In this document: one piece after another, positions 34,406 to 63,235 of the stretch
Layout of the letters: every line of letters begins with the position of its first letter
Position numbering within the stretch: position 1 is the first letter of the stretch
DNA from: Alphaproteobacteria bacterium
GTDB lineage: Bacteria; Pseudomonadota; Alphaproteobacteria; Micropepsales; Micropepsaceae
Reading direction: 5' to 3'
DNA length: 64,000 nt
NCBI GenBank assembly: GCA_003139615.1
Contig: PLJH01000027.1
Span: 64,267 to 128,266 of the forward strand
The notes under the pieces: model-generated
What the model was told of the DNA's origin: nothing
The model's database searches: none
What the model saw: only the letters and a program-made list of their open reading frames with translations
Position numbers and translations under genes: made by a program

Positions 34406-34932
34406 ATGAATCCGATGGAACGATTTCAGGTTTTTGCCCGTTCATTCGCAAACTGGATCTGGCGGGGCGACGGCGCGCATACGTCGTGGGTCCGGCGCGC
34501 GCTGGCGATTGTGTTCGCGTTCCTCGTGCCTATTCCGATTCTGCTGATCCTGCTGTTTCGCTTCGTGCCGGTGCCGGGCACGCCGCAGATGCTCACCTGG
34601 CTCATCGTCGGCGATCCGGTTCACTATCAATGGGTCGCCTATGAAGACATTTCGCCTGCGCTCGGGCGCGCGGTGATCGGTTCCGAAGACCAGAATTTCT
34701 GCAAGCATCATGGCTTCGACTGGAAGTCGATCGACAAGGCGCTCAAGGCGAACAAACGCGGACGTCCGCTGCGCGGCGCCAGCACCATCAGCCAGCAGGT
34801 CGCGCGCACGATGTTTCTGCTGCCGGTGCGAAGCTGGGTGCGCAAAGGCGCCGAGGCCTATCTCACCGTGCTACTCGAAGCGTTGTGGCCGAAGAAGCGC
34901 ATCCTCACGGCCTATCTCAATCTCGTCGATTG
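34406..34932 (+). pseudogene. mtgA: Chromosomal monofunctional peptidoglycan glycosyltransferase, N-terminal part, disrupted by island
   Basis: RAVIGSEDQNFCKHHGFDW...LRGASTISQQVARTMFLLPVRSW...AYLNLVD then frame diverges at att core; C-terminal part at 63213-63446. Confidence 0.93.
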
Positions 34933-36501
34933 CGTTGCCTTGTTGGCACGTCCTTCGGAAGCTTGAGAAGCTATTGATTGGATTGGAAAATCGGGAGGCA
35001 GTCCGGGCGACAGTCCGCTGTCGCCCGGGGCTTGTATGGCTTGGGGAAGGTAGTGAAGCCTGATTTCGACGTTGTCTGCACCGACGATAATCTTCTCGGT
35101 TATGGCTTCGACAATGCCCCTCTTTTCGTCCTGACCGAGCGACGGCCATCGGCCGTGCAGGTCTCGGGCTTCGGACAGAATTTGACTGCTCGAGAGGCGG
35201 TTGATCTTGAGCACGTCGAGAGCAGCTTGCTCGGCTGGTAGTTGCCGATCGAGCTGCTCGGCCCATTCTTCAAGCGGCCGATAACGGGCGCCGAAGCCGG
35301 TCGAACTAATCTGGCCTTCCTGGTAGAGGCGGAACGTCTGATCCATTTCCCGCTGAACGCTCTGCCGCTCGCGTTCGCAATGCCGGAGGGCTTCCTGCTT
35401 TTGCCCGATAATGTTGTCGGCAAGTTCGAGTTGTTCGGCGACCTGATCATCCGAGAACAGGAAGCCCTTGAGCTGGTCGTGATAGATCGCTTCAAGGTCG
35501 CCGACCGGAATACGGTTCTGGCAAGTCCAGCAGGTGTATTTCGGGCTGCGGGAGGGGACGTACATCTTTTGCCCGCATTCGCACGCGGCGACCCCGCTAA
35601 AGAGGTGTACGGGCTTCCTGCCTACCTTGGAGCCGCGCTTGCGGCCATCGAGGATCGCGTTGCACTGCTCCCATAATTCGACCGAAACAATAGGCTCAAC
35701 CTCATGGATGACCCATTCGGATTGGGGCTTGTGTTCGACCCAGCCGGGCCGTGTGGCGCTCGCGGTCGTGTAGTTGACGCGATACTGGCCCTTGGCCGTC
35801 GGGTCTTGTATGAGCCGGGATATGGTCGTGTCGCTCCACTTCGCCCCTCCCCTCGTGCGGAAGCCTCGGTCGTTCAAGATACGCATCACCGTCTTCTTGC
35901 GGCGGTGCTCTAGGAACAGCTCATAGATAAGTTTGCGGATGGATGCCTCGCCCGGGTGCGGAACGACCTTTCCGTCTTTGAGGTGGTAGCCGAATGAAGG
36001 ACGGCCACCGATGGGCGTCCCGCGCTTTGCGCGCATGGGGATCGATGCCGACACTCGGTCCGCGATCTCTTCCCGTTCCCACTGCGCCATTGCCGCGATC
36101 ATCGTATAGAACAGACGGCCCGCCGGAGTTGTCGTGTCGATGCTTTCTTGAAGCGATATCAGATCGGCGTTATTGGCTCGGAAGGTGTCGGACAGATCGA
36201 GCAGTTCGCGTGTGTTGCGCGCAAGTCGTGCCAGCTTCGAAAAAACCAGGCCGCTGATGCGTCCTCTCTCGACATCCGCGAGCATACGTTTGGCTTCTGG
36301 ATGGGAGGAGACGGATTTTCCGCTCACGCCTTCCAGATGATAGACATCGACGACCTTCCAACCCTTGGCGTCGGCATAGGCGCGGGCGCGGGCTTCGTGA
36401 TTTGCGGGGCTCTCGCCGCGGGCCTGATCGTCTGTGGAGACGCGTATCCAAATACCGACACGCTTCTGTCCCTGCTCAACTCCCGCAAGTTTGTTTCTCA
36501 T
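34912..36501 (-). CDS. Large serine integrase of the island; last three residues and stop encoded by chromosomal mtgA sequence
   Basis: GIWIRVSTDDQARGESPANHEARARAYADAKGW...RLARNTRELLDL; Zn-ribbon CECGQKMYV...YTCWTCQ; coiled-coil C-terminus. Confidence 0.93.
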   Translation of the reverse strand: MRNKLAGVEQGQKRVGIWIRVSTDDQARGESPANHEARARAYADAKGWKVVDVYHLEGVSGKSVSSHPEAKRMLADVERGRISGLVFSKLARLARNTRELLDLSDTFRANNADLISLQESIDTTTPAGRLFYTMIAAMAQWEREEIADRVSASIPMRAKRGTPIGGRPSFGYHLKDGKVVPHPGEASIRKLIYELFLEHRRKKTVMRILNDRGFRTRGGAKWSDTTISRLIQDPTAKGQYRVNYTTASATRPGWVEHKPQSEWVIHEVEPIVSVELWEQCNAILDGRKRGSKVGRKPVHLFSGVAACECGQKMYVPSRSPKYTCWTCQNRIPVGDLEAIYHDQLKGFLFSDDQVAEQLELADNIIGQKQEALRHCERERQSVQREMDQTFRLYQEGQISSTGFGARYRPLEEWAEQLDRQLPAEQAALDVLKINRLSSSQILSEARDLHGRWPSLGQDEKRGIVEAITEKIIVGADNVEIRLHYLPQAIQAPGDSGLSPGLPPDFPIQSIASQASEGRANKATQSTRLR

Positions 36502-36630
36502 GAGAAGCCCTCAATATCGCCGCCCAGAGTCTACCGCCTAAGATTTCTTTGGTTCAATAGTTGAGGTTCTTGTTTCCGCTGGAACGGCTACAATTAGGGG
36601 TTCGGCTCAACTCTTCCATCGTCTTCCGGC

Positions 36631-37416
36631 TCATGAGGCGCTCATTATTCGTTGAGCGACGCACAATGAACTCGCTGTGCGGCTTTTGGTTTGCACACGC
36701 CCAATTTCAATCATTTTTGCCAGCACTTCGGATGTTTCATCAACGCCGTAGCGGCACATCGCATCCACACAGGACAGATCGCTGACCATGCTATGGTCGA
36801 ACCCGACCTCTGCTGGGTTTGGACTTTTGACTACCTCAATACCGAACCGCGCGAACAACTCCAGAAAGCCGGTAGCCTCCATCGACTTCCACTCGACTTC
36901 GCCAGCGACATAAGTCGTGGCGCCGACAGCTCTAGATATCTCGAGGCGGTGGGCGGAAGAATGCTGCGCCACGAGCTCGCTCTCCAGCGTCAGGTGTTTA
37001 ACATGCTTAAGCTTTGAAAGCAGGAATGAATTGATCGCAGAATTCAGTGTCAAGAGGTTTGGTCGGTGGTTCGCAAGCTGCTCTTCCAGTGCGGCAACGA
37101 ATCCGGGTGCCGTACGCTCGTGTGCCGGGAAAAGGGCGCAAATCTTATCGATGTGTTCCTCTGACCATTGTGGCTCCCCCGGAGCGATAAGAACGTCGCT
37201 AATTCTTTGGCCGCGACCTCTCGCTATCGGGACGGTAAGCCAAGCTGCCCTGTCTCTCGTGCGATCAAAAATCCTATTGCGATTGACAAAAGAGTTTGCA
37301 TTTCGGTCTGGCAGCGGAGCGAGGTCTAGCAAGACCGCTACGTCTGCTTCATGCAGCCGAGCGAGATGCCGTAGATTTGGCAGATACCTAGTTGTGACGC
37401 AAGTAACTGATGTCAT
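36631..37416 (-). CDS. WbqC-like family protein
   Basis: HEADVAVLLDLAPL...NSFVNRNRI...AAWLTVPIARGRGQRISDV. Confidence 0.7.
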   Translation of the reverse strand: MTSVTCVTTRYLPNLRHLARLHEADVAVLLDLAPLPDRNANSFVNRNRIFDRTRDRAAWLTVPIARGRGQRISDVLIAPGEPQWSEEHIDKICALFPAHERTAPGFVAALEEQLANHRPNLLTLNSAINSFLLSKLKHVKHLTLESELVAQHSSAHRLEISRAVGATTYVAGEVEWKSMEATGFLELFARFGIEVVKSPNPAEVGFDHSMVSDLSCVDAMCRYGVDETSEVLAKMIEIGRVQTKSRTASSLCVAQRIMSAS

Positions 37417-37425
37417 TGTTCTGGT

Positions 37426-38088
37426 TCATACAACGTTGGGCTGCGCGACGGCGTAGGCCCAATCCGCATCGCCGGTTTCCCGGACATCGCGAAGTACCAT
37501 CACCACGTCAAATCCAGCTCGCTCAAGTTCAGCGCACCATTCTGAGATCGCTGATCGGTAAGTTGAGACAATAGCACCATGGTAATCTTCCTGGACGTAT
37601 CCAGCAGGTTGTCCACGGCGCGCTAAATGGGAAGAGCAAACCAGAATGCCGCGTTCGCTCAACGCCTCTCTGGCTAGGCTCAATGCCGCACTGCGTCTCT
37701 CCAACGGGTGAAGCATATCGATGACGTTGCGCAGCATCAATACGGCGTCGTAAGAGTGTCGAGTGACTTCCAATCGAAACATGTCGCCTTGCCTAAAGTC
37801 CGCGTTCGGAAAACGCGCTCTTGCTGCGCCGGTCATCGCTTCTGAGTTGTCTATACCCACATACGCTCGCCAGTTGCTGCCGGTCGCCGCTAGAAAGCGC
37901 CCAGCTCCACAGCCTAGGTCGAGAACCGAGAATTCGGGGCGGAGGAACCGCTCGAAGCAAAACCTTTCGGCAGCCGAAAGTTCTTCCCATCCTGCGTAGG
38001 CCTGCACCACAGAAGGCCTAGACAGCGCGGCCACGTAATCCGCCTCCAATCCATCCTGCTGAGGGATGGTCCCTTCTTGGTCACTCAC
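37426..38088 (-). CDS. Class I SAM-dependent methyltransferase
   Basis: FSVLDLGCGAGRFLA; GTG start overlapping upstream stop (GTGA). Confidence 0.85.
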   Translation of the reverse strand: MSDQEGTIPQQDGLEADYVAALSRPSVVQAYAGWEELSAAERFCFERFLRPEFSVLDLGCGAGRFLAATGSNWRAYVGIDNSEAMTGAARARFPNADFRQGDMFRLEVTRHSYDAVLMLRNVIDMLHPLERRSAALSLAREALSERGILVCSSHLARRGQPAGYVQEDYHGAIVSTYRSAISEWCAELERAGFDVVMVLRDVRETGDADWAYAVAQPNVV

Positions 38089-38840
38089 AGCGTCGCCGCC
38101 ATGAAGTCTGTGAGCGCGACTGCCATCAACTGCCACTCATCGCCTTCAGCGTACCAGTGATCTGCACCCTCGATTTCCAAGAGAGATGCATTGGGCATAA
38201 CCCGAACTAGATCGCGCGAGTGACGGATTGGAACTGCCGTGTCCGCTGTTCCGTGAACAATTCGGACTGCTGCGTTTATTTTTGAGGCCGCGGCGTAAGT
38301 GTTGTGGAAAAGGGCATCTATGACAGCACCGTATTCCAATTCCGCTTTGTCAGAGTACCAATCCTCTCCCCACTTTTTCATGTGTGCCGAGCCGTATTGA
38401 CGTTCGTATCCCTCAGGCAGAAAACTGCTGGGCGACTTTAAGCCGATAGCCTTGATGTTTGGGAAATTCGCCGCCTCTAAGAGCGCGACATTGCCGCCGT
38501 AGCTCGAACCGATTACGCCGATCCTGGAAATGTTATGCCGTCCGTTCTTCGAAATATATTCCATCACTCCGCGGAAGTTCTGGCATCCCCTGGTCAGTGT
38601 CAGGTCTTCATATTTTCCCGGTGAATAGCCGAGCCCCGTGAAATCGAACAGGAACGTCGCGATGCCACGCTCGAGGAGCATCGGAACTAGATTTTGCCAA
38701 GTTTGACCTTTGCTGCCGTTCCGGCCGTCGCCGGTCGCAAGCACCACAAGCGGACAACCCGCTGGCGAGGATGGGAGTGCCCAAGCCCCGAACAACGTGT
38801 GCTGACCATCGGAAAACTTTACGAGATTGGTTCCGGACAT
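38085..38840 (-). CDS. Alpha/beta hydrolase
   Basis: IGSSYGGN nucleophile elbow; HGTADTAVPIRHSRDL; EIEGADHWY. Confidence 0.85.
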   Translation of the reverse strand: MSGTNLVKFSDGQHTLFGAWALPSSPAGCPLVVLATGDGRNGSKGQTWQNLVPMLLERGIATFLFDFTGLGYSPGKYEDLTLTRGCQNFRGVMEYISKNGRHNISRIGVIGSSYGGNVALLEAANFPNIKAIGLKSPSSFLPEGYERQYGSAHMKKWGEDWYSDKAELEYGAVIDALFHNTYAAASKINAAVRIVHGTADTAVPIRHSRDLVRVMPNASLLEIEGADHWYAEGDEWQLMAVALTDFMAATL

Positions 38841-38848
38841 CTGGGGCC

Positions 38849-39688
38849 TCAAGAGTTAGATTGACTGGGTAAGGGTTCGGCTGATTTTTGTGTCAGGCGC
38901 GGCGCAGTCGAGGGCTCGACGTATTTCGTACTGGCGCGTTTGAGCGCCTCCATCGAGGGAGCCAATACAGTTCCATCAGAAATGTGGTGAGCCAAAAAAC
39001 TGTGGGCTCGCCGAAAATAGTATAACCCATAGTCGGCCAGCTTGAGTGCTACTGGAACGCTTACCAGCGTCGCCGCACCGATCCAATATGCGTTCCCACC
39101 AAGTGCGAATGAGGCGGCTACCGCGACCAAGGGCAAAATCAACGCTGATCCAAGTCTTAGCTCGCCCTCGGAACGGTATTGTTCGTACGGAGCCAACAGC
39201 GGAGTTCCGGCGAGCTTACCTTCCATCCACAATGTCTCGGCAATCACGCTATCGACGAAGCGAGATTGCTCTTCCGGGAAGGTAGGGGCGTCTTCGCAGG
39301 TTTCGGCGTATTGACGATAGAAGCGTGCGGCTTCGACTTTGATCCGGCGCCGTGCGGAATCGCTGAGCGGAGCGATAGACCGGAGAACCCAGCCTTTAGG
39401 TCCGGCCTTCAGGGCTGTGAAGTCCCTCAGGGCCATCTTCCTGTGGAGCCAGTCTACAATGCCTTCAAGACCGGTGATATAAAGCGATCCCACCAAAAAA
39501 CAAAAAGCCGCGAGCAATACTTGCGGCATGAATGGTTCAATCTCCAAGATTTGCTTGGCGGCAGGCAGGATCGAAATTCCGTGGGCTAGCCGGTAGCCGA
39601 ACAATATGTATAGCGAGCCGACAAGAAGTGCTCCCGCCATTATTGAGGATCGCAAACTTCTGAGACTTGGAAGGATCGTTTGAAGCAT
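38849..39688 (-). CDS. Membrane protein of unknown function
   Basis: Several hydrophobic segments; 279 aa; head of operon. Confidence 0.6.
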   Translation of the reverse strand: MLQTILPSLRSLRSSIMAGALLVGSLYILFGYRLAHGISILPAAKQILEIEPFMPQVLLAAFCFLVGSLYITGLEGIVDWLHRKMALRDFTALKAGPKGWVLRSIAPLSDSARRRIKVEAARFYRQYAETCEDAPTFPEEQSRFVDSVIAETLWMEGKLAGTPLLAPYEQYRSEGELRLGSALILPLVAVAASFALGGNAYWIGAATLVSVPVALKLADYGLYYFRRAHSFLAHHISDGTVLAPSMEALKRASTKYVEPSTAPRLTQKSAEPLPSQSNS

Positions 39689-40818: not shown

Positions 40819-41216
40819 TGAATAGCCTATTCTGGATAGCGCAATTGAAGCTTCTGTGAAATGGTGCTCATCGAAAAATGTTATTCCGTTCGCGCTAACA
40901 CGTTGGAGTGGCGGGGAGCAGGCGTCCGGTCTGCACCCAAAATTCTAGGCTTTTCCCAGAAATACTCGCGGAGTGGGACGTGAGAAATCGCGCGCTGAAT
41001 TGCCGAGGTCTATTCAGAAAGTATGAGAGCGGCGGCGCGAATTGAGACGAAATTGGTACCGGATGGCGAGCAGCGCCGCCACAACCAACCATTTTGCGTC
41101 ACAAACAATAGTCCGTATACTGTTGAAACACTATGGCCGATTTTGTTTCAAAGGCATTAGCAAAGTCAACGACAATTATTGGACTCATACTCGGCACGGA
41201 GCCGAAGAAGTCGGCT

Positions 41217-41822
41217 ATGTCATGGTCGTTGTATGATTCCCGCGGTCGAAGAAAGTATTTGGTTCCCGAGGAGCGTTGGGCCTTCCTGCGTATTGCGCGC
41301 AGAGTCGGAGGTGAGGTCGGGACGTTTTGCGCGGTGCTCGCGTATTGCGGACCGCGTATTTCCGAAGCTCTGGCGCTCACGCCCGAGCGCATCGATGACG
41401 GGGACTGCACCATCAATTTTGAGACGTTGAAGCGCCGAAAGCGTGGCGTCATTCGAACGATCCCCGTTCCTCGAAAGCTTCTGGAGGAGCTTGAGCGGGT
41501 GCATCGCTATCGAAGTGCACAACGCAACAAGAAGCTTGCTCACCAAAGGCTGTGGACGTGGAGCCGCACAACAGCCTGGAGGCGCGTGAAGGAGGTGGCG
41601 TTGCGTGCCGGGATACCGACGTACCTTTGCACACCCAAGGCGTTGCGGCACGCTTTTGGCGTCTTTGCGGAGCTTAGCAAGGTTGGTCTGACCCTAATCA
41701 AGAAGTGGATGGGGCACGCGAAGCTGGAAACGACGGAAATCTACACGACGGTCATAGGCGAAGAGGAGCGATTTCTCGCACGGTTGACATGGAAGCGGAG
41801 CCCGCCTGGGTATCGGCGGTAG
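41217..41822 (+). CDS. Tyrosine recombinase/phage integrase family protein (catalytic domain)
   Basis: CGPRISEALAL; TPKALRHAFGV; WMGHAKLETTEIYTTVIGEEE. Confidence 0.85.
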   Translation: MSWSLYDSRGRRKYLVPEERWAFLRIARRVGGEVGTFCAVLAYCGPRISEALALTPERIDDGDCTINFETLKRRKRGVIRTIPVPRKLLEELERVHRYRSAQRNKKLAHQRLWTWSRTTAWRRVKEVALRAGIPTYLCTPKALRHAFGVFAELSKVGLTLIKKWMGHAKLETTEIYTTVIGEEERFLARLTWKRSPPGYRR

Positions 41823-43542: not shown

Positions 43543-46050
43543 TTGCTGATGTATTCCAATACCCGCGCCGTCCGCGCATTTCTGCTCGCTTCCGGAGCTA
43601 CCCTGGTCCTGCCAGTTGCGGCTTTCGCCAATCCTTCGGGCGGTACGGTCTCAACCGGCTCTGCTGCGATCAGCCAATCCTCCTCGGGCAAGACGACGAT
43701 CGATCAAAAGAGCGAGGGTGTCGTTATCGATTGGTCGAGCTTCAATGTAGGTACGGGACAGACCACTCAATTCGTGCAGCCCAATTCGACTGCCATAGCT
43801 GTCAACCGGATCGGCGGCACAAGCGCGTCCCAGATCCTCGGGACACTCGACGCGAACGGTCGCATCGTCCTTATCAACGGCAACGGACTGCTGTTCGGAA
43901 AGGGCGCGACCGTTAACGTGGGCTCGCTCATCGCAACCTCAACGGACGATACCGATTCCAATGTTCTCGCAGGTACGTTTTCCAAGGCTGGAAACCAGAA
44001 TGCGGCGGTCGTCAATCAAGGCCGGATCGATGCGGGGAGCGGCGGCGTTGTGGCGCTTGTTGCGCCGTCCGTGACGAATGCGGGGACTGTGAATGCGAAG
44101 CTCGGGACGGTCGCGCTCGGCGCGGCCAACAAGTTCACGGTCGACTTCTCTGGCGACGACCTCGTGTCGTTCGCCGCCCAGGGCGACGTGACCAGCTCGG
44201 CGCAAGCGACCAATACCGGACGCCTCGTGGGCGCGAACGTCTCGATGACGGCCCACGCGGCCGAGGTGCTCGCTACCGGCGTCGTCAATATGAGCGGCAC
44301 GATTACAGCCCAATCCGTCCATCAGGCCGGGGGCGTCATCGTTCTCGATGCGGGCAATGGTTCGCTCACGACCACAGGTACCCTCAACGCCGCAGGAGCC
44401 ACGGGCGGCGGACGCATCGAGACTTCGGGCAATACCGCCGCGATCTCGGGTAACATCACGGCCGGCGCGGGTGGACACTGGCTTGTCGATCCTGACAACC
44501 TCACGATCAAGGCTGCCGCAGCCAAAACGATCGATGCTTCCCTGCAAGCAGGCACCAACGTGGAGCTTCAAACGACGGCGAGCGGTGCCAGCGGGCCGGG
44601 CATCGTGTCTTCGGGCGAAGGCGACATCGACATTGCAAAGCAGATCGCCTGGTCAACCAGCGCGAAGCTCACTATCGACGCATACGACAACATCAACGTG
44701 CTCGCTCCGATCAAAGTAGAAGGTGCGGGAGCGCTTTCGCTTGTCGCGAACACGGAAATGGCAACCGGCACCGTCAACTTCAATGGTGGCTATGTCGCAT
44801 TCTCCGATGCGGTCGCTCGCAAGACGCAAGGCTCGCTTTCCATCAACGGGCATGCGTACGAGCTGGAAAACAGCTTGAGCTCGCTCGCTGCGGGAATTGC
44901 GGCCAACCCGTCAGGGTATTTCGCACTGGCAGACTCATACAACGCGAAGGCAGACGGCACCTATGCGTCGTCTCCCATAGAAACAGTCTTCCTGGGAACA
45001 TTCGACGGGCTCGGGAATAAACTTTCCGATGTGTCTATCAACGACCCGACGGACCTTAACGTCGGACTGTTCGCGACCAACAGCGGCACGATCCTGAACG
45101 CGGTCTTGGATGATGTGAAAATCATCGCTCTCGGTACGCAATCCGAAAATGGCTACTTGTCCGTGGGCGGGCTCGTAGGACAGAACAACGGAATGATTGC
45201 CGCTTCGTCGGTCGACGGCTCGATCTCCGGGAAGTATGCCTTTGACGGTCTGCTGGTTGGCACCAATCACGGCACGATTCTCGGTAGCCACACATCGGGC
45301 AGTATTCGCGGAGCGGATGATAGCAACGGCGGGCTCGTTGGCCACAATCAAACCGAGAATACCAATCTGCTCGGTTTGATATCGCTCAGTTATTCGAGCG
45401 CCGACATATCGGCATTGAAAGGCACCAGCGCTGGATTCGTGGCGCAGAACGAGGGAACCATCACCGCCTCATATGCGATCGGATCGGTTACCGGCAAAGG
45501 GGGCGGCTTTGCAGGTGGTTTCGTGGGCCAAACTGGATATGGCGGCACCATATCGTTGTCATACGCAACCGGGGCGGTGGAGTTGTTCGGCAAGTATGGC
45601 GAAGTGGGCGGCTTTGCCGGTTTCAACGATTGGGACGGAACTATCGAAAACTCGTATTCGACGGGGAGTGTCTTTGGAAGCGGCAAAGGCAGTGACGTGG
45701 GCGGTTTCGTCGGAGCCAACGGCCACGAGGGCGAGGGCGAGTCCTTCTTCATTAGTTCCAGCTATTCCACCGGCGCGGTCAGCGGCGCCCACGGAGCCAT
45801 TCTCGGCGGTTTCGCGGGGAGCGACCAGAGCAGCGGTGGTATCTCCTCTTGCTATTGGGATACCGCTACAAGCGGAATTGCAAATCTGTCGCAAGGTGCA
45901 GGCAGCATTGCAAACGACCCCGGCATCACCGGTCTTGCGACTGCGCAGTTGCAGTCCGGACTTCCTGCCGGCTTTTCAGCCGCAGACTGGGGCCTCTCGG
46001 CTTCGGTCAACGGCGGACTGCCGTATCTGCTCGTGATTCCACCGTCGTAG
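43543..46050 (+). CDS. Filamentous-haemagglutinin-type (TPS domain) adhesin with GLUG-like repeats
   Basis: TTIDQKSEGVVIDWSSFNVGTGQTTQFVQPNSTAIAVNRI; GGLVGQNNG, GGFVGQTGYGGTISLSYATG repeats. Confidence 0.85.
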   Translation: MLMYSNTRAVRAFLLASGATLVLPVAAFANPSGGTVSTGSAAISQSSSGKTTIDQKSEGVVIDWSSFNVGTGQTTQFVQPNSTAIAVNRIGGTSASQILGTLDANGRIVLINGNGLLFGKGATVNVGSLIATSTDDTDSNVLAGTFSKAGNQNAAVVNQGRIDAGSGGVVALVAPSVTNAGTVNAKLGTVALGAANKFTVDFSGDDLVSFAAQGDVTSSAQATNTGRLVGANVSMTAHAAEVLATGVVNMSGTITAQSVHQAGGVIVLDAGNGSLTTTGTLNAAGATGGGRIETSGNTAAISGNITAGAGGHWLVDPDNLTIKAAAAKTIDASLQAGTNVELQTTASGASGPGIVSSGEGDIDIAKQIAWSTSAKLTIDAYDNINVLAPIKVEGAGALSLVANTEMATGTVNFNGGYVAFSDAVARKTQGSLSINGHAYELENSLSSLAAGIAANPSGYFALADSYNAKADGTYASSPIETVFLGTFDGLGNKLSDVSINDPTDLNVGLFATNSGTILNAVLDDVKIIALGTQSENGYLSVGGLVGQNNGMIAASSVDGSISGKYAFDGLLVGTNHGTILGSHTSGSIRGADDSNGGLVGHNQTENTNLLGLISLSYSSADISALKGTSAGFVAQNEGTITASYAIGSVTGKGGGFAGGFVGQTGYGGTISLSYATGAVELFGKYGEVGGFAGFNDWDGTIENSYSTGSVFGSGKGSDVGGFVGANGHEGEGESFFISSSYSTGAVSGAHGAILGGFAGSDQSSGGISSCYWDTATSGIANLSQGAGSIANDPGITGLATAQLQSGLPAGFSAADWGLSASVNGGLPYLLVIPPS

Positions 46051-46833: not shown

Positions 46834-47280
46834 CTAACTGCGCTTGCGCTTCTTTGGCGCGCGATCCATGCGCCCCAGGCCGGTTTTCCTGGCGAGCATC
46901 GAGCGCGTCGCGGCGTAGTTGGGCGCCGTCATCGGATAGTCATGCGGCAAGCCCCACTTCGTCCGGTATTGCTCGGGCGAGAGGCTATAGCGCGACCGCA
47001 GATATCGCTTGAGCATCTTGAGCTTCTTGCCATCTTCAAGGCAGATCACGTAATCAGGCGTGATCGATTTCTTTATGGGAACGGCGGGCTTCTGCGTCAT
47101 GGGAGGAGCTTCGCCTCCCGACTGTGCGAGCCAAGCGAGCGTTGCGTGCACGTCCCTAACCAATCCCGATACTTCGCTCGCCGAGGCGCGATTATTGCCG
47201 ACATACGCTTGCACTATGATCGCTGCGTATTCGATCAGGTTCGTATTTGGCAAAACTGTTTGTTCGTTATCAAGCGCCAT
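46834..47280 (-). CDS. MucR/Ros family transcriptional regulator
   Basis: YVICLEDGKKLKMLKRYLRSRYSLSPEQYRTKWGLPHDYPMTAPNYAATRSMLARKTGLG. Confidence 0.93.
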   Translation of the reverse strand: MALDNEQTVLPNTNLIEYAAIIVQAYVGNNRASASEVSGLVRDVHATLAWLAQSGGEAPPMTQKPAVPIKKSITPDYVICLEDGKKLKMLKRYLRSRYSLSPEQYRTKWGLPHDYPMTAPNYAATRSMLARKTGLGRMDRAPKKRKRS

Positions 47281-49023: not shown

Positions 49024-49096
49024 ATTTCTCTCCTGCGCATTGCAGGAGCCTCCGAAGGATTCAGAGGCTCCGAGGAGCGCGGGAGGCGGGAAGGGA

Positions 49097-50792: not shown

Positions 50793-52157
50793 TCAGACAT
50801 CCCTGATGGCATAGCGATGAGAAAGCGCCTGCAGCTTCGCGCGCTCTGTCGCCGGCACAACGAACACGCCGCCCGTCTTCTTCGTTTCGAGATTCAAACG
50901 GCCCCGAAGTACCGCGCCGATGCCGCGGTATGACATCGGTCCGAACCGGTCGGCGTTGTCGGCATTGAAGCGCTTCGTAACTAGGGCGACCGGTGCGGGA
51001 CCTCCAGCGTGCTCAGCAAAGGTTGCTATGACGGCGGCCAGGACACAGGCGTCCGGCGCCTCACGGCGGGTGCGGGCAAGATCGGCACTTTTGTCCTTGA
51101 GCCAGCTTTGTATCTCGGCACGGAGGGCTGGATCTTCGACCAGGCTGAGGAGCGCGAGCGCGGATTGATTGGCGCGGGACTCGACACCTTCGATGATTGC
51201 AGCGGGGTCGGTCTTGATGTGGAAGAACTCCGAGAACCGAAAATGCAGGAGGCGGTTTCGAAGAGCAAGAGCTTCGTCCTTCATACTGGCGGGCAAATGT
51301 ATGGGAATGTCCGGCCGGAGGGAGCGGGAATAGGTCTCTTCGGTGAAGAAGCGGCTTTCGAGCGCAATGTCCTGGAACGGCTCGCGGGTTGCGATGAGCT
51401 TCGGTCCATAGACCTTGAAGGCATATGGGTTGAACTCCTTGTATCGATTCTGGATCGTGCGCAGCACCGGCATGCCTTTGGCCGTGCCGTTGTTGAGTAT
51501 CTTGACCAAGTCCGCTTTCGCGTCGCTATAGGGCAAGTCGGCTTCGTCAAGAACGAGCGTGCCGCCGAAGCTGTCTAGTGTGTGGAAGATCGGGGAGACG
51601 GTCGAGGCGCCCGACGCGAAGAAGGGCCGATAGCAGAGCGAGCCGATAGTGTGGAGCGCCCGGGTCTTGCCGGTGCCGTAGTCGCCGCGAAGGCGAAGGT
51701 ATGGGAGTTCGCCGAAGGCGTCGTGCACCCACGAGAGAAGCACATAGTGCACGGCGATTTGCTCGAACAGCGGTGAGAGATCGACGTACCGATGCAGGAA
51801 CGCCCGAATGTCGGCAACCAGTTCATCCTTGAGCCCATATTCGAGCGGCATCGAGGGGAGGAGCACACAGCCGCTTGTTATGAGGTTGTTGGCGGGTGAA
51901 TACGGGACGAGGAGTTCACCCGTCCCAATGCTCACTTCCTGCTCGATGTTCCAAAGACCATCGAAGCGCGAAACGGCAAGCGCGGTCGTGTGCTTGGCAG
52001 CGTTGTATACGAGCTCCACCAACGTGTCTGAGGATACGCGCGAGACGGTCGGGATGCGGTTTGAATCTGGCATACGGTGCATTGTCGTATGCACGAGAGA
52101 GTTTTGCGCGACGGCACTTTCGGACAGCCGAATTACCGAGTCGCTGAGACTGGACAC
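50793..52157 (-). CDS. AAA+/P-loop ATPase, possibly replication-related
   Basis: Walker A LRGDYGTGKTRAL; Walker B TLVLDEADL. Confidence 0.65.
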   Translation of the reverse strand: MSSLSDSVIRLSESAVAQNSLVHTTMHRMPDSNRIPTVSRVSSDTLVELVYNAAKHTTALAVSRFDGLWNIEQEVSIGTGELLVPYSPANNLITSGCVLLPSMPLEYGLKDELVADIRAFLHRYVDLSPLFEQIAVHYVLLSWVHDAFGELPYLRLRGDYGTGKTRALHTIGSLCYRPFFASGASTVSPIFHTLDSFGGTLVLDEADLPYSDAKADLVKILNNGTAKGMPVLRTIQNRYKEFNPYAFKVYGPKLIATREPFQDIALESRFFTEETYSRSLRPDIPIHLPASMKDEALALRNRLLHFRFSEFFHIKTDPAAIIEGVESRANQSALALLSLVEDPALRAEIQSWLKDKSADLARTRREAPDACVLAAVIATFAEHAGGPAPVALVTKRFNADNADRFGPMSYRGIGAVLRGRLNLETKKTGGVFVVPATERAKLQALSHRYAIRDV

Positions 52158-53408: not shown

Positions 53409-54968
53409 CTAAGTTCTCCCATTCTCTGCTATATTCCTCAGTATGTTGAGTATGCTCCTTATTCGAACATTATCTCGATGACGAGCACATTCCTGGTCAG
53501 GTTCGAACTTTGTTCGAAGGTTGTCTCGACTAGGAGCACATTCCTCTAAATTTTCTAATTCCAATATCTCTCGATAAGGAGTCCGCAGCGTAAACGTTGA
53601 AGTTTCTCCGTGTACGGAGAAGTTCGAACATATGATATCGAGCAATTCGCGCTTTTCGTCATCAAGCAGCAATTCGTAGCGCAGAAGCTCACGATTGTTG
53701 CGTTCGAACTCTTCAAACAGTTCTTGGAGAGGCGACAGCCTGTCGGTGCGTGCCAGTTCTGCCAGGATGCCTTGGCGCTCCATGAGCAGCTTCTCCTTGC
53801 GCGCATTGAATGTGGCGCTATCGATGGTTTCGTCGACCAATAGGTCGGTGAGGCGCGTGAGGCGGTCGTCGAGATGGTGGAGTCGAAGGGTGAGGGCCGC
53901 TTTTAGGCGCTCCGTATTGCCTTCAAGGTCGGTACATTCATCCCGTACAACGTCCCTTAAGTCCTCAAGTCCCTGTTCGTCGATGCGTATGCGCTCAATG
54001 TGATCCAGTGCGACGCCTTCGAGCGCGTCGCTCTTCCACGAGACGCCTTGGCAATGCTCGCCATGGCAGCGGTAGTAGAGGCGGGACTTTTGGATTTCGC
54101 CGGTGAGATGGCGGCGCTCGCAATTATCGCATTTCACCATCTGGCGCAGCAGGTATCGATGCTTTTTCGCTTTGGGCACCGTCTTGCCGCGCAGGGTGGC
54201 TTGCACTCGATCAAACAGGGCTTTGGATATGAGCGGCTCATGCACGCCGGGGAACGTCTCGCCGGTCGTGCTGATGCGGATCACGCCCATATAGAAGGGA
54301 TTGTTGAGGACGGCAGTGAGTGTGTTGTCATAGAGGGGCTTGCCGGCGGCAGTGCGCAATCCCTTCTGCCACATCTCATGCCGCAATTCTTCGAAACCGA
54401 CGGTGCTCGTGGCATATCGTTCGAACAGATGGCGGATGAGCGGCCCTTTGACCGGGTCAATGACTTTCAGCTTGCCCTTGCCGCAGTTGAGATAGCCGAT
54501 TGGAGCCGCCCACGGATACAGGCCCTGCTTCAAGCGGCCATACATACCCTTCTTCACTTCCTCGCGTAGGTTGCGGATGTAGTCGGCAGCGACGACAGCC
54601 TGGATGTCAGCGGAGAGACGGCCGCCCCGCGAGAGTAGGTCGAAATTATCGCTCACGAAGCGAACATCGATGCCGCGGTCTATGAGGTCGCCGAGATCAG
54701 CCCAATCCCGAAGATTACGCGCGCTGCGGTCGATCTTGTGGATGATAAGGCCGTCAGCTTTTCCTGATCTGAGTTTCGAAAGCATCTCGGAAAACTGCCG
54801 ACGCCCTTGTTTCGCGGCCGTCTCCACCTCTTCGAACCAACCGGTGATCGTGAGTGCGTTGCGAGCGGCATACGCTTCGATGGCGCTCTTCTGTTCCTGA
54901 AGGGATGATCCGCGCTCGCCCTGCTTTACGGTTGAAACGCGGATGTATGCGAAATATGACTTGGTCAT
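53409..54968 (-). CDS. Second serine recombinase (resolvase N-terminus plus Zn-ribbon and C-terminal domain)
   Basis: YFAYIRVSTVKQGERGSSLQEQKSAIEAYAARN; IHKIDRSARNLRDWADL; CDNCERRHLTGEIQKSRLYYRCHGEHCQG. Confidence 0.92.
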   Translation of the reverse strand: MTKSYFAYIRVSTVKQGERGSSLQEQKSAIEAYAARNALTITGWFEEVETAAKQGRRQFSEMLSKLRSGKADGLIIHKIDRSARNLRDWADLGDLIDRGIDVRFVSDNFDLLSRGGRLSADIQAVVAADYIRNLREEVKKGMYGRLKQGLYPWAAPIGYLNCGKGKLKVIDPVKGPLIRHLFERYATSTVGFEELRHEMWQKGLRTAAGKPLYDNTLTAVLNNPFYMGVIRISTTGETFPGVHEPLISKALFDRVQATLRGKTVPKAKKHRYLLRQMVKCDNCERRHLTGEIQKSRLYYRCHGEHCQGVSWKSDALEGVALDHIERIRIDEQGLEDLRDVVRDECTDLEGNTERLKAALTLRLHHLDDRLTRLTDLLVDETIDSATFNARKEKLLMERQGILAELARTDRLSPLQELFEEFERNNRELLRYELLLDDEKRELLDIICSNFSVHGETSTFTLRTPYREILELENLEECAPSRDNLRTKFEPDQECARHRDNVRIRSILNILRNIAENGRT

Positions 54969-55326: not shown

Positions 55327-56673
55327 GTGACCGCGTCATCGCCCCCAACGTCCCGACCTCCAGGCGCTACCGCTGTCCGCTATTGCCTTCTATTCGAGGA
55401 GGCATCGGCGTCCGAAGATTTGCCGATGATGCCGCAGGAAATTTCCTATTTCGCCCGAACCAACTTCCGCAACAGCGGTAAGCTCGTCGGCATCAAGCAG
55501 TCCGACCGCCTGTCGCATGTCTACGTCATCGGCAAGACAGGCGTCGGAAAGTCCACGCTCCTTGAAACTCTCGCCCTGCAAGACCTGAGCGCGGGTCGCG
55601 GATTCGCGTTCATAGACCCCCATGGAGATGCGGTCGAACGCGTCTTTGCGGCCGTTCCGGCTGAAGAGAAGGAACCGGTAAGCTATCTGAATGCGCCAGA
55701 TGGCGCCCAACCATTCGGATACAATCCTCTCCGGCGCGTGCGCGACGACAAGATACCGCTTGCCGTATCGGGTCTCATAGAAACGCTCAAGAAGCTCTGG
55801 CCCGATGCTTGGGGCGTGCGTATGGAGCATGTCCTCCGTAACTCACTGTACGCGCTCCTAGAGCGGGACGACGCTACGCTTCCCTCGATCCTTCGGCTCT
55901 ACGCCGACGAGAAATGGCGGAAGGATGTTACCAGAGGCATTCGCAACGAAACCGTCCGCCGCTTTTGGCGGCACGAATTCGAGCAGTACCACTTCCGCCA
56001 GAAAGCGGATGCCGTCGCGCCTATCCAGAACAAGCTCGGTGCGCTTCTGTCCGACCCGACGCTGTTTCGCATCCTAGTTGAGCCAAAACGCCCTATTCGC
56101 TTTCGGTCGCTCATGGACGAGGGGAGGGTGCTGCTCGTCAACCTGTCCAAGGGCCAGCTCGGCGAAGACAGCTCAGCGCTCCTCGGTGGCTTCATCGCCT
56201 CGACCATCGGTTTGGCCGCGTTCAGTCGCGCCGATAGCCAATCCAATACCCGCCGCCCCTTCTTCCTGTACATGGACGAATTCCAGTCCTTCACGACCCT
56301 CATGCTCGCCAACATGATGAGTGAGCTTAGGAAGTACGGCATCGGCCTTACGCTCGCGCATCAATACTTCCACCAGCTCGATCCGGACATCCGGCACGCG
56401 GTGCTGGGGAATGCGGGAACGATGATTTCATTTCGAGTGGGACCGGAGGATGCGTCGCTATTGGCGAAGGAGTTTCAGCCGACGTTTGAAGTTGAAGACC
56501 TGCTCAGTCTCCCGAACCACGATATCTACCTCAAGTTGATGGTCGACGGGACGCCGAGCAAAGCGTTCAGCGCCGAGACGCTAACCTCAGCAGAAATCGA
56601 AAGGACTGTCCGCGCAGCAGCTCGACCTACTGCCAAGAAACTATGTCGTTACGCTCACTCAGAATGGTTCTGA
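55327..56673 (+). CDS. VirD4/TraG/HerA-like ATPase 1
   Basis: VIGKTGVGKSTLLE; FAFIDPHGDAVE; FFLYMDEFQSF; GIGLTLAHQYFHQLD. Confidence 0.85.
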   Translation: MTASSPPTSRPPGATAVRYCLLFEEASASEDLPMMPQEISYFARTNFRNSGKLVGIKQSDRLSHVYVIGKTGVGKSTLLETLALQDLSAGRGFAFIDPHGDAVERVFAAVPAEEKEPVSYLNAPDGAQPFGYNPLRRVRDDKIPLAVSGLIETLKKLWPDAWGVRMEHVLRNSLYALLERDDATLPSILRLYADEKWRKDVTRGIRNETVRRFWRHEFEQYHFRQKADAVAPIQNKLGALLSDPTLFRILVEPKRPIRFRSLMDEGRVLLVNLSKGQLGEDSSALLGGFIASTIGLAAFSRADSQSNTRRPFFLYMDEFQSFTTLMLANMMSELRKYGIGLTLAHQYFHQLDPDIRHAVLGNAGTMISFRVGPEDASLLAKEFQPTFEVEDLLSLPNHDIYLKLMVDGTPSKAFSAETLTSAEIERTVRAAARPTAKKLCRYAHSEWF

Positions 56674-57758: not shown

Positions 57759-58148
57759 ATGAAATTGGTGCTTCGGCGCGAACAGCGCCCGAATTTGCTT
57801 GGCCAGATCGTATTCAGTCTCGATGTTCGGGGCGATCTCTCAGGAGATGAACAAGACGCGATCAGGACGTATTCGCTCGGCGATAGACTGCTCTATGAGA
57901 AGTACACCCTTATCGCAAAGGGCTGGGGCGTCATCGGTTGGATTACCGCCGTCCTCGTTCGCGTTGCGCATTATGCGGTCAATACGACGATCAAGGGGCG
58001 AGACCTGATTGAGGGGAAGCGGGTCCAGTGCAGCAGCATTGCCGAAATGGTCGTTGTCGAGACGATCATTAAGGAAGAAGCGGCGACGTTCGGGATGCTC
58101 CTCAAAGCAGCCATGACGTTTCGCGGCGAAGAAGCGATCCCGATCTAG
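57759..58148 (+). CDS. Hypothetical protein coupled to ATPase 2
   Basis: Ends 3 bp before the GTG start of the next ORF. Confidence 0.5.
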   Translation: MKLVLRREQRPNLLGQIVFSLDVRGDLSGDEQDAIRTYSLGDRLLYEKYTLIAKGWGVIGWITAVLVRVAHYAVNTTIKGRDLIEGKRVQCSSIAEMVVVETIIKEEAATFGMLLKAAMTFRGEEAIPI

Positions 58149-58151
58149 TCG

Positions 58152-60899
58152 GTGTTCAAGACCACGAACTTCGGCCAATTTCTGCTTGGCGGCACCAAGC
58201 AGCGCGAGCTACGCGAAACCGAGGCCGCCTGGGACGAGACCCAATCGCTCTGGCGCCGGTCGCCGGCTGCCGAAGGCATCCCGGAATTGGCCGTTGCCCT
58301 AACTGCCGATCTTCGTGAACGGATTGATCGGGTTCCCGCGTTCCCCCTGCAACTATCGATCGCGTACGCTCTCGAACAATTGCTAGAGGCGGAAAGCATC
58401 TGCCCCATCGAGCCCATATGGCGCGCGATCGAATACGACATCAACGCGGCTATGGAATTCCGCGAGATGCTTGTGCGCCGAAGGCGCTGGTCCGTCGATT
58501 TCGACCGACTGTTCGATACCTTCCGCTCGGCGGCTTTCGCGAGCCTCGTTCCTGTCATCGACGCGTTACCCGAGTGCTGCTTCGGGGAGTGGGAGGGCGA
58601 GCGGCCAGACACCTTCGAGGTTACGCTTGTCGATCTTCTTGACGATCCCGCTCGCACCGTCGAACGACTATTCATGCTGCCCTATGACGACGATGCGTTT
58701 CGCTACGAGGTGTTCGCGCGCCTGCGAGAAGTGTGCGCGACCAACCTCCTGATCGCGTCCGGATTTCGGGGAGACGACGATCCGCGCCGGCACGAGGGTA
58801 AACTCGTTCTCCCGAGCGCGCATAAGGCCACGACTGGCAGCGAACTGGCCGAGCTGTATCTGCGTGGTTCGCCCCTCAAGTCGCTGCTCGATATTCCTGT
58901 GCCGTTCCATATCCCCGCCGAGGCGCGGTTCGAGCATTGCCACATCGTGGGCGGTACGGGGCATGGCAAGACACAGCTCATGCAGAAGTTGATCCATGCC
59001 GATCTTCTGGCGAGCCGAGAGGACGGGCGGTCGGTTATCGTCATCGACAGCCAGGGCGATCTCATCAACAAGCTCGTCCGGCTGGAGCTGTTCGCTCCCG
59101 GCGCCAAAGACAGCCTCGCGGATAGGCTCATTCTCATCGATCCGGCGGATGTGGAGTTTCCTGCCGCTCTCAATCTCTTCGACGCGCATCTGGACCGCGT
59201 CCGCTCCTATTCTGCCGCGGACAAGGAACGGGTGCTGAATGGCGTTATCGAACTCTATGAGCTGTTCTTTGGCGCGTTCCTCGGGGCCGAACTGACGCAG
59301 AAGCAGGGCGTAATCTTCAAGTACCTCGCCCGCCTCATGCTCGCCATTCCCGGCGCCACGATACACACGCTCATGCGGATCATGGAGGACGGAAAACCAT
59401 TCAAGCCGTACATGGATCAACTCGACGGCTCGGCCCGCTACTTCTTCGAGACCGAGTTTTTTCATCCATCGTTCGCCGCGACTAAGAAGCAGGTGTTGCG
59501 GCGTCTGTGGGGAGTACTAGCAACGCCTGCCTTCGAGCGCATGTTCACGCAGAAAGAGAACAAGCTCGACATCTTCGAGGCGATGAACGAGGGCAAGATC
59601 ATCCTCGTATCGACAGCCAAGGACTTGCTAAAACGCGAAGGCTCCCAACTACTCGGCCGCTTCTTCATCGCGATGATCTCCCAAGCTGCACTTGAGCGTT
59701 CAACTCTTCCCGACCGGCTACGCAGACCGTGTTTCGTGTATGTGGACGAGGCGCAGGAGTATTTTGACGACTCGGTCGAGACGATCCTGAACCAGGCGCG
59801 CAAGTATCGCGTCGGGCTTACACTCGCGCATCAAACGCTCGATCAGCTATCCCCTCGCCTCCGATCTGCGATTCTCTCGAACACGTCGATGAAGTGTGCA
59901 GGCGGCGTCTCGGCCAAGGATGCCCGAGCGCTTGCGGACGAACTTCGGACAACATCCGATTTCGTAGAGGGTATGAAGCGCAAAGGGCCGCGAAGCGAGT
60001 TCGCGGTGTGGGTGAAGCAGCTCACGGGCCACGCGATACGGCTTTCGGTCCCGCTCGGCTTCTTGGAGAAGCAGCCGACGCTTGACGACGAAGACTATGT
60101 TGCGCTCGTGGCACTCAATCGCTGCCGGTATTGCGGGACACTCGCCGATATTCCAGAGCATGCCGCGCCTGATGGGCCGCCCGATGCACCAACACCAGAG
60201 GCACCCCCGAGTCCCCCAACGCCCAGCGCAACGAGTGCCGAACCGCCCGCAGCATCCGAAGCTCCGGGCACGCCTGTCCGGCCCGGCCAGCCCGCCGATC
60301 TCAGAAAGCCAGTACACCCAACCGCACAGACGGATGCACCACATTTCGCGAGGCCTCCAGTCGAGGAAAGAGAGCTAGGCAAGGGCGGCAAGCAACATCG
60401 CTATTTGCAATCGCTCATCAAGGAGCTTGCGGATCAGCAGGGCCTCAAAGCGACCATCGAGGCACCGCTTGCCAACGGTAACGGGCAAGTGGACGTGCTC
60501 ATCGAGCGCGACGGCGTGCTAGCCGCAATTGAAGTGTCCGTTACTACCCCCGTCGAACATGAACGGGAAAACCTGCGGAAATGCCTCGCGTGCGCATATC
60601 CGCGGATCGCAGTCGTCCTTGCCAAGTCGAGAACCGTCCAATCCAACTACCGCGCTGCACTTAGAGAAGGATTGAACGAACCCGATCTCGCGCGCGTGTC
60701 GTTCCTAACTCCCGAAGAACTCCCGAGCTTCATAGCATCGCTCGCGCCTCCTCCCGAACCCACGGAACGGATTGTCCGCGGATACAAAGTGAAAGCCTCG
60801 CGCGTACCAACTTCACCAGAAGATGCCAAAAGCCGACAAGACACGGTCGCTCGGCTGATTGCCAAATCGCTCATCAGCCAAAAGGACAAGGATCGCTGA
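58152..60899 (+). CDS. VirD4/HerA-like ATPase 2 with C-terminal nuclease-fold-like domain
   Basis: IVGGTGHGKTQLMQ; VIVIDSQGDLI; CFVYVDEAQEYF; VGLTLAHQTLDQLS; C-terminal NGQVDVLIERDGVLAAIEVS. Confidence 0.85.
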   Translation: MFKTTNFGQFLLGGTKQRELRETEAAWDETQSLWRRSPAAEGIPELAVALTADLRERIDRVPAFPLQLSIAYALEQLLEAESICPIEPIWRAIEYDINAAMEFREMLVRRRRWSVDFDRLFDTFRSAAFASLVPVIDALPECCFGEWEGERPDTFEVTLVDLLDDPARTVERLFMLPYDDDAFRYEVFARLREVCATNLLIASGFRGDDDPRRHEGKLVLPSAHKATTGSELAELYLRGSPLKSLLDIPVPFHIPAEARFEHCHIVGGTGHGKTQLMQKLIHADLLASREDGRSVIVIDSQGDLINKLVRLELFAPGAKDSLADRLILIDPADVEFPAALNLFDAHLDRVRSYSAADKERVLNGVIELYELFFGAFLGAELTQKQGVIFKYLARLMLAIPGATIHTLMRIMEDGKPFKPYMDQLDGSARYFFETEFFHPSFAATKKQVLRRLWGVLATPAFERMFTQKENKLDIFEAMNEGKIILVSTAKDLLKREGSQLLGRFFIAMISQAALERSTLPDRLRRPCFVYVDEAQEYFDDSVETILNQARKYRVGLTLAHQTLDQLSPRLRSAILSNTSMKCAGGVSAKDARALADELRTTSDFVEGMKRKGPRSEFAVWVKQLTGHAIRLSVPLGFLEKQPTLDDEDYVALVALNRCRYCGTLADIPEHAAPDGPPDAPTPEAPPSPPTPSATSAEPPAASEAPGTPVRPGQPADLRKPVHPTAQTDAPHFARPPVEERELGKGGKQHRYLQSLIKELADQQGLKATIEAPLANGNGQVDVLIERDGVLAAIEVSVTTPVEHERENLRKCLACAYPRIAVVLAKSRTVQSNYRAALREGLNEPDLARVSFLTPEELPSFIASLAPPPEPTERIVRGYKVKASRVPTSPEDAKSRQDTVARLIAKSLISQKDKDR

Positions 60900-60944: not shown

Positions 60945-61703
60945 ATGGATTTGGGGCAGCGACTTTTTGGCATGACTGCGGGTGCCCGTCGCTATTGGTA
61001 CGGCGATGGTGAACGAACGCCTTGGGTCAGGCGTGCGCTCGCAGTCGTCTTCGCGCTCCTCGTCCCTGCCCCGATCATTTTAATTCTCATATTCCGCTTC
61101 GTGCCGATACCCGGAACGCCGCAAATGCTGTTCTCACTCGTAACCGGACACGGCGCGCATTACGCGTGGCGCGGTAGCGACAGCATTTCACCGGCCCTCG
61201 GTAGGGCAGTTATCAGTTCGGAAGATCAGCGGTTCTGCTCCCATCATGGCTTCGATTGGAAGAACATCGATGAAGCCGTGCGCCAGCACGAGCGCCACCC
61301 GCGCAAGCAGCTGCGAGGGGCGAGCACGATCAGCCAGCAGACCGCACGAAGTTTGTTCCTGTTGCCGGTGCGAAGCTGGATACGAAAAGGTATGGAGGCC
61401 TATTTAACGGTCCTGCTCGAAGCCCTCTGGCCTAAGGAGCGTATTTTGACCGTCTACCTAAACGTCGTTGATTGGGGCAACGGTAACTTTGGAGCCGAGG
61501 CGGCAGCGCAGGCCTATTTCCATGAGCCCGCGGCGGCGATCTCGCGCACGCAGGCCGCTCGCCTTGCCGCCGTATTGCCCGACCCCAGCCGGTGGCAGGC
61601 GGCGCGCCCGGGGCCATACGTGGCCGCGCGAACACATGCCTTGGGCACGCAAATGCAAGACGTTGCCGCCGGTGGCTTGGATTGGTGTGTGAGGCGCAAG
61701 TAG
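60945..61703 (+). CDS. mtgA: Complete island-encoded monofunctional peptidoglycan glycosyltransferase
   Basis: Co-linear with the disrupted chromosomal copy: SEDQRFCSHHGFDW, GASTISQQTARSLFLLPVRSW, AYLNVVDWGNGNFGAEAAAQAYF. Confidence 0.95.
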   Translation: MDLGQRLFGMTAGARRYWYGDGERTPWVRRALAVVFALLVPAPIILILIFRFVPIPGTPQMLFSLVTGHGAHYAWRGSDSISPALGRAVISSEDQRFCSHHGFDWKNIDEAVRQHERHPRKQLRGASTISQQTARSLFLLPVRSWIRKGMEAYLTVLLEALWPKERILTVYLNVVDWGNGNFGAEAAAQAYFHEPAAAISRTQAARLAAVLPDPSRWQAARPGPYVAARTHALGTQMQDVAAGGLDWCVRRK

Positions 61704-62036: not shown

Positions 62037-62104
62037 GACGCTGCCAACCGCTTGAAGCACATCCGGCGTGCTAATCTTCACGCCCTCGTGCCCGATTCGG
62101 ACGC

Positions 62105-62710
62105 ATGGCTACGGAGATTGAAATGGCAGCGGCGGCTGGACAAACGCTGAGAAGTTACTATGAGGCCCAAGTACGGGAATGGCTGGACCTGAAAATGGTG
62201 ACCGGTCGCTATTCGTCGATATTGGTCGGCCAGCTTGCCCAGCACATCGAACAGCGCACGGTGAACGTCTTCGCAATCTATGACGAGGTTGAAGCCTTAG
62301 AGAGGCCAGACATCCCCCGTGCAACTCGTACGAAGCCAGCCGCTCCGCTGAAGGGTGCGCTCCTTCGGGGACTTTGGCATAAGCATCACTTCCAAGCCGC
62401 TTACCTCTTACAAAACCTTCGCAATCAATGGCCCGAAGCGAAAGTGGCTGTGCTCGTTGAGACCGTAGCAGCCGATGCAACCATGTCGGATGATGTTAAG
62501 GCCGGGCGCATCGCACACGAAATCGTACTGGGCGGATATCAGGCACAAGCTCAAGCCAGAAAAATCACAGGCGAATGGATCATCTACGCAAAGCACAGTG
62601 ACAGGAACTATTACCTTACTCTGGGAGACCATGGAGAGGACGCCGCTATCGCTAGTCGGGCTCTGGCATGCAACGCCGAATTCCCAGAGCTTCAAGGAAC
62701 GTGGGGATGA
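62105..62710 (+). CDS. Hypothetical protein
   Basis: 201 aa ORF; LLRGLWHKHHFQAAYLLQNL. Confidence 0.55.
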   Translation: MATEIEMAAAAGQTLRSYYEAQVREWLDLKMVTGRYSSILVGQLAQHIEQRTVNVFAIYDEVEALERPDIPRATRTKPAAPLKGALLRGLWHKHHFQAAYLLQNLRNQWPEAKVAVLVETVAADATMSDDVKAGRIAHEIVLGGYQAQAQARKITGEWIIYAKHSDRNYYLTLGDHGEDAAIASRALACNAEFPELQGTWG

Positions 62711-62764
62711 GTAGCTGCCACGACGAGTGCCAGCGCGTTGCGCCGCGTGATAGGTATAGTTCGC

Positions 62765-63235
62765 CTAACGCTGTAACGATGCGCGGTCAGCGAGATCGCG
62801 CAATCGACTTAGAATGCGTCCCCTGGGGTATCGCCGCCCAGTTTCCCAAGCGCGCACCGTCAGCTTGTAGACGCCCAGGAGCTTTCCCAATTCCTCCGCT
62901 GTAAGGCCCCTTCGACGCCTCACCGTAGAGACCATCTCAGGGACGGTTGCGGGGGTTGCGGCGACTGGATCGACGCCGAGGTAGGCGATGACGGCCGGCC
63001 AGTTGTGGCTACCTGGACAGGTCCCGTTGGTCTCCCATGCCTTGTACGTCTTGAGGTCCACACCGATGGCGGCAGCAGCATCGCTCTGCCGTAACTTCCT
63101 GACCTGCCGCGCCCTCAGTAGGTGCTCAGCCAGTCCTACGGGCGCAGTATGCGTTTCGATATGCCTTGAGACACAAAGCCTTAGGTCGGTGACAGGGAAA
63201 AAGGCAACGCAACTCGTCGATTGGGGCCACGGCAA
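62765..63235 (-). CDS. Tandem XRE-like HTH ORF; predicted C-terminal extension of the island integrase in the circular form
   Basis: Two HTH units (KLRQSDAAAAIGVDLKTYKAWETNG; LTAEELGKLLGVYKLTVRAWETGRRYP); only in-frame ATG/GTG/TTG upstream of the first HTH is a TTG in chromosomal mtgA. Confidence 0.7.
   Translation of the reverse strand: MPWPQSTSCVAFFPVTDLRLCVSRHIETHTAPVGLAEHLLRARQVRKLRQSDAAAAIGVDLKTYKAWETNGTCPGSHNWPAVIAYLGVDPVAATPATVPEMVSTVRRRRGLTAEELGKLLGVYKLTVRAWETGRRYPRGRILSRLRDLADRASLQR

Follow-up and report, generated by a model that had tools for sequence, protein, structure and literature searches.

Insertion of the element in mtgA

The window analysed in this work is the whole stretch of 64,000 nucleotides taken from contig PLJH01000027.1 of an Alphaproteobacteria bacterium (Micropepsaceae), and it contains a mobile element that splits mtgA, a gene of cell-wall synthesis. 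The element carries the gene of a large serine recombinase (LSR), LSR1, next to its left end and a gene that encodes a helix-turn-helix (HTH) protein next to its right end. Both genes appear to be parts of one integrase gene that is cut at the attachment site of the circular form (attP) when the element integrates. The features of the left (attL) and right (attR) junctions are as follows.

34406..34921, plus strand: 5' part of the host mtgA (codons 1-172), continued in frame at 63213-63446 (joined MtgA of 249 aa); orthologues are intact in most same-genus genomes
34922..34932: attL core CTCGTCGATTG, exact direct repeat, central dinucleotide GT at 34925-34926
34930..34941, plus strand: attP arm TTGCGTTGCCTT of the left end, perfect inverted repeat of 63201-63212
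63201..63212, plus strand: attP arm AAGGCAACGCAA of the right end, perfect inverted repeat of 34930-34941
63213..63223: attR core CTCGTCGATTG, exact repeat
63213..63446, plus strand: 3' part of the host mtgA, open to the stop codon

The initial annotation of the window had reported an 11-bp repeat flanking an element that interrupts mtgA in frame, a circle of 28,291 bp and an island paralogue of 252 aa. Each of these was reproduced. The repeat has only two copies in the window on either strand, where about 0.03 chance copies of a given 11-mer are expected arithmetically in 64 kb. In silico joining at the repeat gives an uninterrupted MtgA, the conceptual circle has the reported size, and the island paralogue matches the monofunctional transglycosylase family TIGR02070. 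Uninterrupted mtgA, which had been proposed as a check, is common among relatives: 53 of the 59 same-genus genomes have one mtgA match, nearly all of full length and in one frame. The split pair together with an island copy is found in the source genome only. Within 1.5 kb, the surroundings of mtgA gave no syntenic match in relatives.

The conceptual attP reads AAGGCAACGCAA-CTCGTCGA-TTGCGTTGCCTT, a perfect 12-bp inverted repeat with an 8-bp centre between its arms. The LSR gene adjoins attL, and same-family elements elsewhere end in similar arms. These features take the observation beyond chance. The att core is read as 11 bp with the non-palindromic central dinucleotide GT. This dinucleotide occupies positions 6-7 of a 12-bp centre, as do TG in related elements inserted in comM and AA in those inserted in a GT2 glycosyltransferase gene. 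The source genome is a draft of 142 contigs, and a misassembly could have placed the two mtgA halves beside unrelated DNA. We regard this as extremely improbable, because both junctions have family-typical att arms with the LSR at the same offset and the mtgA frame is restored exactly.

The insertion is real, and it belongs to an ordinary class. The reading as a precise site-specific insertion that splits mtgA is supported, as are the predicted restoration of the gene by excision and the paralogue on the island. The position in the middle of a gene is less notable than it was taken to be, since LSRs commonly integrate inside protein-coding genes (PMC10083194). What the initial annotation overlooked is that attP lies within the element's own integrase gene, which is so truncated too by integration, and that most members of the element's family target comM, from which this one has switched.

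Attachment site inside the integrase gene

The two parts of the integrase gene in the window are as follows.

34912..36501, minus strand: LSR1, the large serine integrase in its integrated form, 529 aa (Resolvase 1e-34, Recombinase 1e-18, CcrB 2e-38)
62765..63211, minus strand: severed C-terminal tail of LSR1, a double HTH (Xre-like) with two HTH_3 stretches; homologous tails lie at attR of other elements

LSR1 has a Resolvase domain at the N-terminus followed by a Recombinase domain, which defines it as an LSR, and it matched the structures of TP901-1 and other LSRs. Its zinc ribbon was found below the cut-off only. Host mtgA DNA supplies the last codons and the stop codon of LSR1, in whose 529 residues the crossover falls at residue 526. 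If the circle is read on its minus strand, the LSR1 frame crosses attP without a shift and runs on into the HTH gene, which gives one LSR-HTH protein of 675 aa. Since the frame is continuous through attP, the site would lie within the integrase gene, and integration would remove the C-terminal double HTH.

The same arrangement was sought in LSR1 relatives, for which one genome per species was scanned. The scan found 343 relatives, and the best 80 of them (52-65% identity, from many phyla by record title) were characterised. Among these 80 loci, 58 adjoin a split comM (LSR1 mostly beside its N-terminal half), four adjoin the GT2 gene and 18 are unresolved. A target was recognised at 62 loci; the LSR frame stays open across the att site in 58 of them, whereas the other two forward frames, read over the last 40 codons, are open in 20 of 124 cases. 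The C-terminal side of comM was read at 30 loci, and in most of them an open reading frame (ORF) that is open through attR encodes the conserved double HTH. Automatic core finding by the longest repeat fails for comM elements, which share a core of 2-5 bp, and the comM codon motif was used in its place. For 11 comM elements, the two ends lie on the same contig and the core is unambiguous. The phases of LSR and HTH agree in all 11, in two registers (7 and 4 elements), an outcome with a chance of about 6e-6 if the phases were independent. The reconstructed joins in comM elements give a single ORF of 601-676 aa each and restore comM.

Uncut fusions were also found in nature. Four loci (L075, L081, L111, and L114) each have one ORF with Resolvase, Recombinase, and HTH_3 domains. 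comM is intact in the genomes of L075, L081, and L111; it is split over contigs in the L114 genome, which is hence uninformative. The tails are under purifying selection, with ratios of nonsynonymous to synonymous substitution rates of 0.17, 0.21, and 0.11 in three pairs. In an AlphaFold2 model of the fusion in L111 (mean pLDDT 86), the LSR body extends to about residue 480. A linker of low confidence follows at 483-509 and contains the att site at residue 502, and two HTH domains, mostly of high confidence, span 530-646.

The locus could instead be an ordinary LSR island in a coding gene, with the HTH gene as a separate regulator that starts near the far end and joins the LSR frame incidentally. 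LSR islands in coding genes are common (PMC10083194), and HTH regulators are frequent on islands. This explanation is improbable in view of the frame matches in two registers, the four single-ORF fusions in nature, and the openness of the LSR frame. Several points weigh against a single severed gene. Excision, the circle and the fusion protein are conceptual and read from sequence. No terminal overlap was found in L081 and L111, two of the contigs with an uncut fusion, which so give no proof of a circle, and the uncut fusions may be integrated via another recombinase. A few tails have a length of 82-90 aa only, or are frameshifted in second copies (G148a), and the HTH part might be translated alone from an internal start. 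With these points included, we consider it very probable that attP lies inside one LSR-HTH gene that is severed by integration.

An uncut LSR-HTH gene is present on a 63-kb Yonathbacteria contig (G167, L207-L210), where the backbone is circularly permuted in the order of a second LSR (LSR2), the conserved protein g50793, LSR1-HTH, and the ATPases. This element may be free or integrated through LSR2.

Distribution of the family and change of target

A total of 96 genomes of the taxonomic family were scanned for LSR1 relatives, and eight other genomes of the same genus hold them, with 54-64% identity. The same-genus loci share a backbone of LSR1, a tyrosine recombinase, ArdC, g50793, LSR2, ATP1, g57759, ATP2, and the HTH protein of the far end. 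Five of the same-genus insertions are in the GT2 gene at TKP(N) codons and two are in comM. The window element has the same protein family and backbone as the comM-targeting LSR elements; since the relatives mostly target comM, it is read as a target-switched member. The target of the window element is mtgA and not the comM site (AMNP|C), and comM is intact in the source genome. The central dinucleotide tracks the target, with TG in comM (46 loci), AA in GT2, and GT in mtgA.

Targeting of the Mg-chelatase gene (comM/yifB) by LSRs is already known. Durrant et al. 2022 (PMC10083194) list it for 12.4% of the site-specific LSRs that they predict, and it is also described for sr1 variants of phage WO (PMC9203015). 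These systems are similar to the family in this work in that an LSR integrates in a conserved coding gene, and the comM insertions among our 80 relatives are at one site. The window member differs from them in its use of mtgA and in its centre, which is GT instead of TG. The literature search found no paper on mtgA as an integration site.

Two other arrangements were observed at comM. In G042 (L049/L050), the insertion has the opposite orientation with the central dinucleotide CA, and there are in-frame fusions of LSR1 with the C-terminal half of ComM and of the N-terminal half of ComM with the HTH. In L182 (G147), L187-L190 (G148), and L193-L194 (G139), two tandem comM C-terminal copies are present at one comM site, each with its own HTH tail. 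These tandem copies look as if elements pile up or leave ends behind.

Copies of the target gene carried by the elements

The element in the window carries its own mtgA.

60945..61703, plus strand: island mtgA, full length (Transgly 2e-45; TIGR02070 4e-74)

The island mtgA begins 45 bp past ATP2 and retains the conserved motifs; compared over the joined protein, its identity to the host gene is 66%. Around attB, the island and host genes have 20 mismatches in 75 positions. The MtgA tree places the island copy inside the diversity of the genus, with its deep forks unresolved. An intact comM was identified inside two comM elements (G160 and G143). The G143 copy has AMNSC at the core in place of AMNPC, and the G160 copy is changed on its left side (GSMNPC in place of AAMNPC).

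The island mtgA, with its diverged att region, probably replaces the interrupted gene. The target copies in general resemble substitute genes that the element cannot recombine with, and the cases are few. What weighs against this is that only three of the 17 elements examined carry target copies, and that G143 is only partly spanned. The island mtgA could also be chance cargo that does not substitute for the split gene, and comM is not generally essential, which together with the small number of cases and the many related elements that have no target copy would suit this explanation. We consider chance cargo rather unlikely, because copies are found only in elements that target the same gene (comM in comM elements and mtgA in the mtgA element), and because the copies are of full length and are altered near the att core.

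Possible role of the severed tail

In the circle, the gene would encode an LSR body, a flexible linker, and a double HTH. Recombination at GT with attB in mtgA (codons for NLVDWG) would open the integrase gene in the linker, and the chromosome would then have a catalytic LSR without HTH at one end, an orphan HTH at the other end, and a split mtgA. Integration replaces the integrase's tail with a small number of codons from the host, and excision would restore the integrase gene and mtgA together. Every catalytic domain is kept in the truncated LSR.

The tail could signal the circle state to the enzyme by binding the att arms or the LSR promoter. The full-length enzyme, present in the free circle only, might favour integration or control its own promoter; the tail-less enzyme would no longer do so, and the integrated state would be stable until an excision factor acts. 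Once the tail is lost, the integrated state may become locked, or else the enzyme may become able to excise the element together with a cofactor. We tentatively propose, with slightly less than even confidence, that the tail is a state switch for directionality or autoregulation.

The truncated enzyme may instead be inert, as in a self-disabling ('suicidal') integrase, so that the element would be trapped and could leave only if a related full-length integrase helped. This follows the logic of the archaeal suicidal integrases (PMC8371274). Related elements and tandem copies at one site (G147, G148, and G139) do exist, which speaks in its favour. The truncated LSR retains all Pfam domains of the catalytic body, however, and this body is complete in the model. 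Known LSRs also function without an HTH tail of this sort. These points make a self-disabled enzyme somewhat doubtful.

The state-switch reading may extend to the whole family, although we hold this only tentatively. Members of a widespread and mainly bacterial family of serine integrases would then use integration as a protein-level switch with no separate control gene, in which the double HTH is amputated and directionality or regulation is changed, and some members would also carry their target gene in a recombination-proof copy.

Comparison with known systems

Integrases that split their own gene (suicidal, SSV-type) have been described as exclusively archaeal tyrosine recombinases (PMC8371274). 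The LSR1 family resembles them in that attP is inside the integrase gene, integration splits this gene, and excision restores it. Unlike them, LSR1 is not an archaeal tyrosine recombinase; its family consists of serine enzymes, mainly in bacteria, and the catalytic body stays whole while only the HTH tail is severed.

Integration-dependent immunity of the mycobacteriophages BPs and Brujita also has attP in a coding gene, and integration alters the length of the protein. The gene that is cut is the repressor in these phages, whereas it is the integrase in the window element.

As searched, PMC10083194 and PMC9203015 do not mention attP inside an LSR gene. The literature search, with most subscription papers outside it, found none on attP inside a serine integrase gene or on suicidal serine integrases. 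The arrangement of the integrase gene is a new form of own-gene-splitting integration that is well supported by sequence, and it is found in serine integrases of many bacterial phyla, in contrast to the earlier archaeal-tyrosine exclusivity (PMC8371274). It offers a simple and testable answer to how an LSR could sense the integrated state, and it supplies pairs of enzymes, one full-length and one truncated, that occur in nature and whose att sites are defined. LSRs are tools of genome engineering, and those annotated from integrated elements of this family would miss a native domain. Studies of specificity can make use of the switch of target (comM to GT2 or mtgA), in which the central dinucleotide changes to match.

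Other genes of the element and its class

The remaining annotated features of the element are as follows.

36631..39688, minus strand: cargo (WbqC-like, methyltransferase, alpha/beta hydrolase, unknown)
41133..41822, plus strand: tyrosine recombinase, common to same-genus elements
43543..46050, plus strand: cargo, TPS-domain filamentous-haemagglutinin-like adhesin
46834..47280, minus strand: cargo, Ros/MucR regulator
48256..49431, minus strand: ArdC-like antirestriction protein (ArdcN and MPTase-PolyVal), in several relatives
50793..52157, minus strand: g50793, conserved AAA+ protein; model resembles MCM-like/SCCmec Cch helicases
53409..54968, minus strand: LSR2, second large serine recombinase, family-conserved
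55327..56673, plus strand: ATP1, VirD4/HerA-like ATPase, family backbone
57759..58148, plus strand: g57759, small conserved protein before ATP2
58152..60899, plus strand: ATP2, VirD4/HerA-like ATPase, family backbone

The element is not assigned to the integrative and conjugative elements, which have a relaxase and type IV secretion genes. The element ORFs searched had no Pfam match to either, only the VirD4/HerA-like ATPases, and several of these ORFs had no Pfam match at all. In many phyla, LSR1 relatives are accompanied by two such ATPases, while no relaxase or secretion system is recognisable. The matches to defence systems (mad8 and HerA) reflect the generic ATPase fold only. A prophage was also rejected, with no Pfam match to capsid, tail or terminase and no close relative among 50,697 phage records; no search of PHROGs was made. 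The phage matches to LSR1 are two only, both below 30% identity, and three viral contigs have no HTH tail. LSR1 had no match in 72,556 plasmid records.

The staphylococcal cassette chromosome (SCC) elements, with Ccr and the Cch helicase, have distant similarity to the LSR (the CcrB match of LSR1), and the window element likewise has LSR2 beside a helicase-like AAA+ gene. The CcrB match reaches 132 bits against the NCBIfam cut-off of 900, and the target is mtgA and not rlmH. We know of no attP inside ccr. LSR2 and g50793 recall a ccr-cch module because the model of g50793 resembles MCM-like helicases and SCCmec Cch; this likeness is a fold resemblance of models at low TM-scores and not membership.

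LSR2 is on the minus strand in the window, but most related elements (e.g. G020 and G142), viewed in the same relative orientation, have it on the plus strand; its segment may be inverted in the window element. The conserved gene g50793 adjoins LSR2, and the similarity of its model to MCM-like helicases, to NrS-1 and to SCCmec Cch suggests that the element passes through a replication step once excised.

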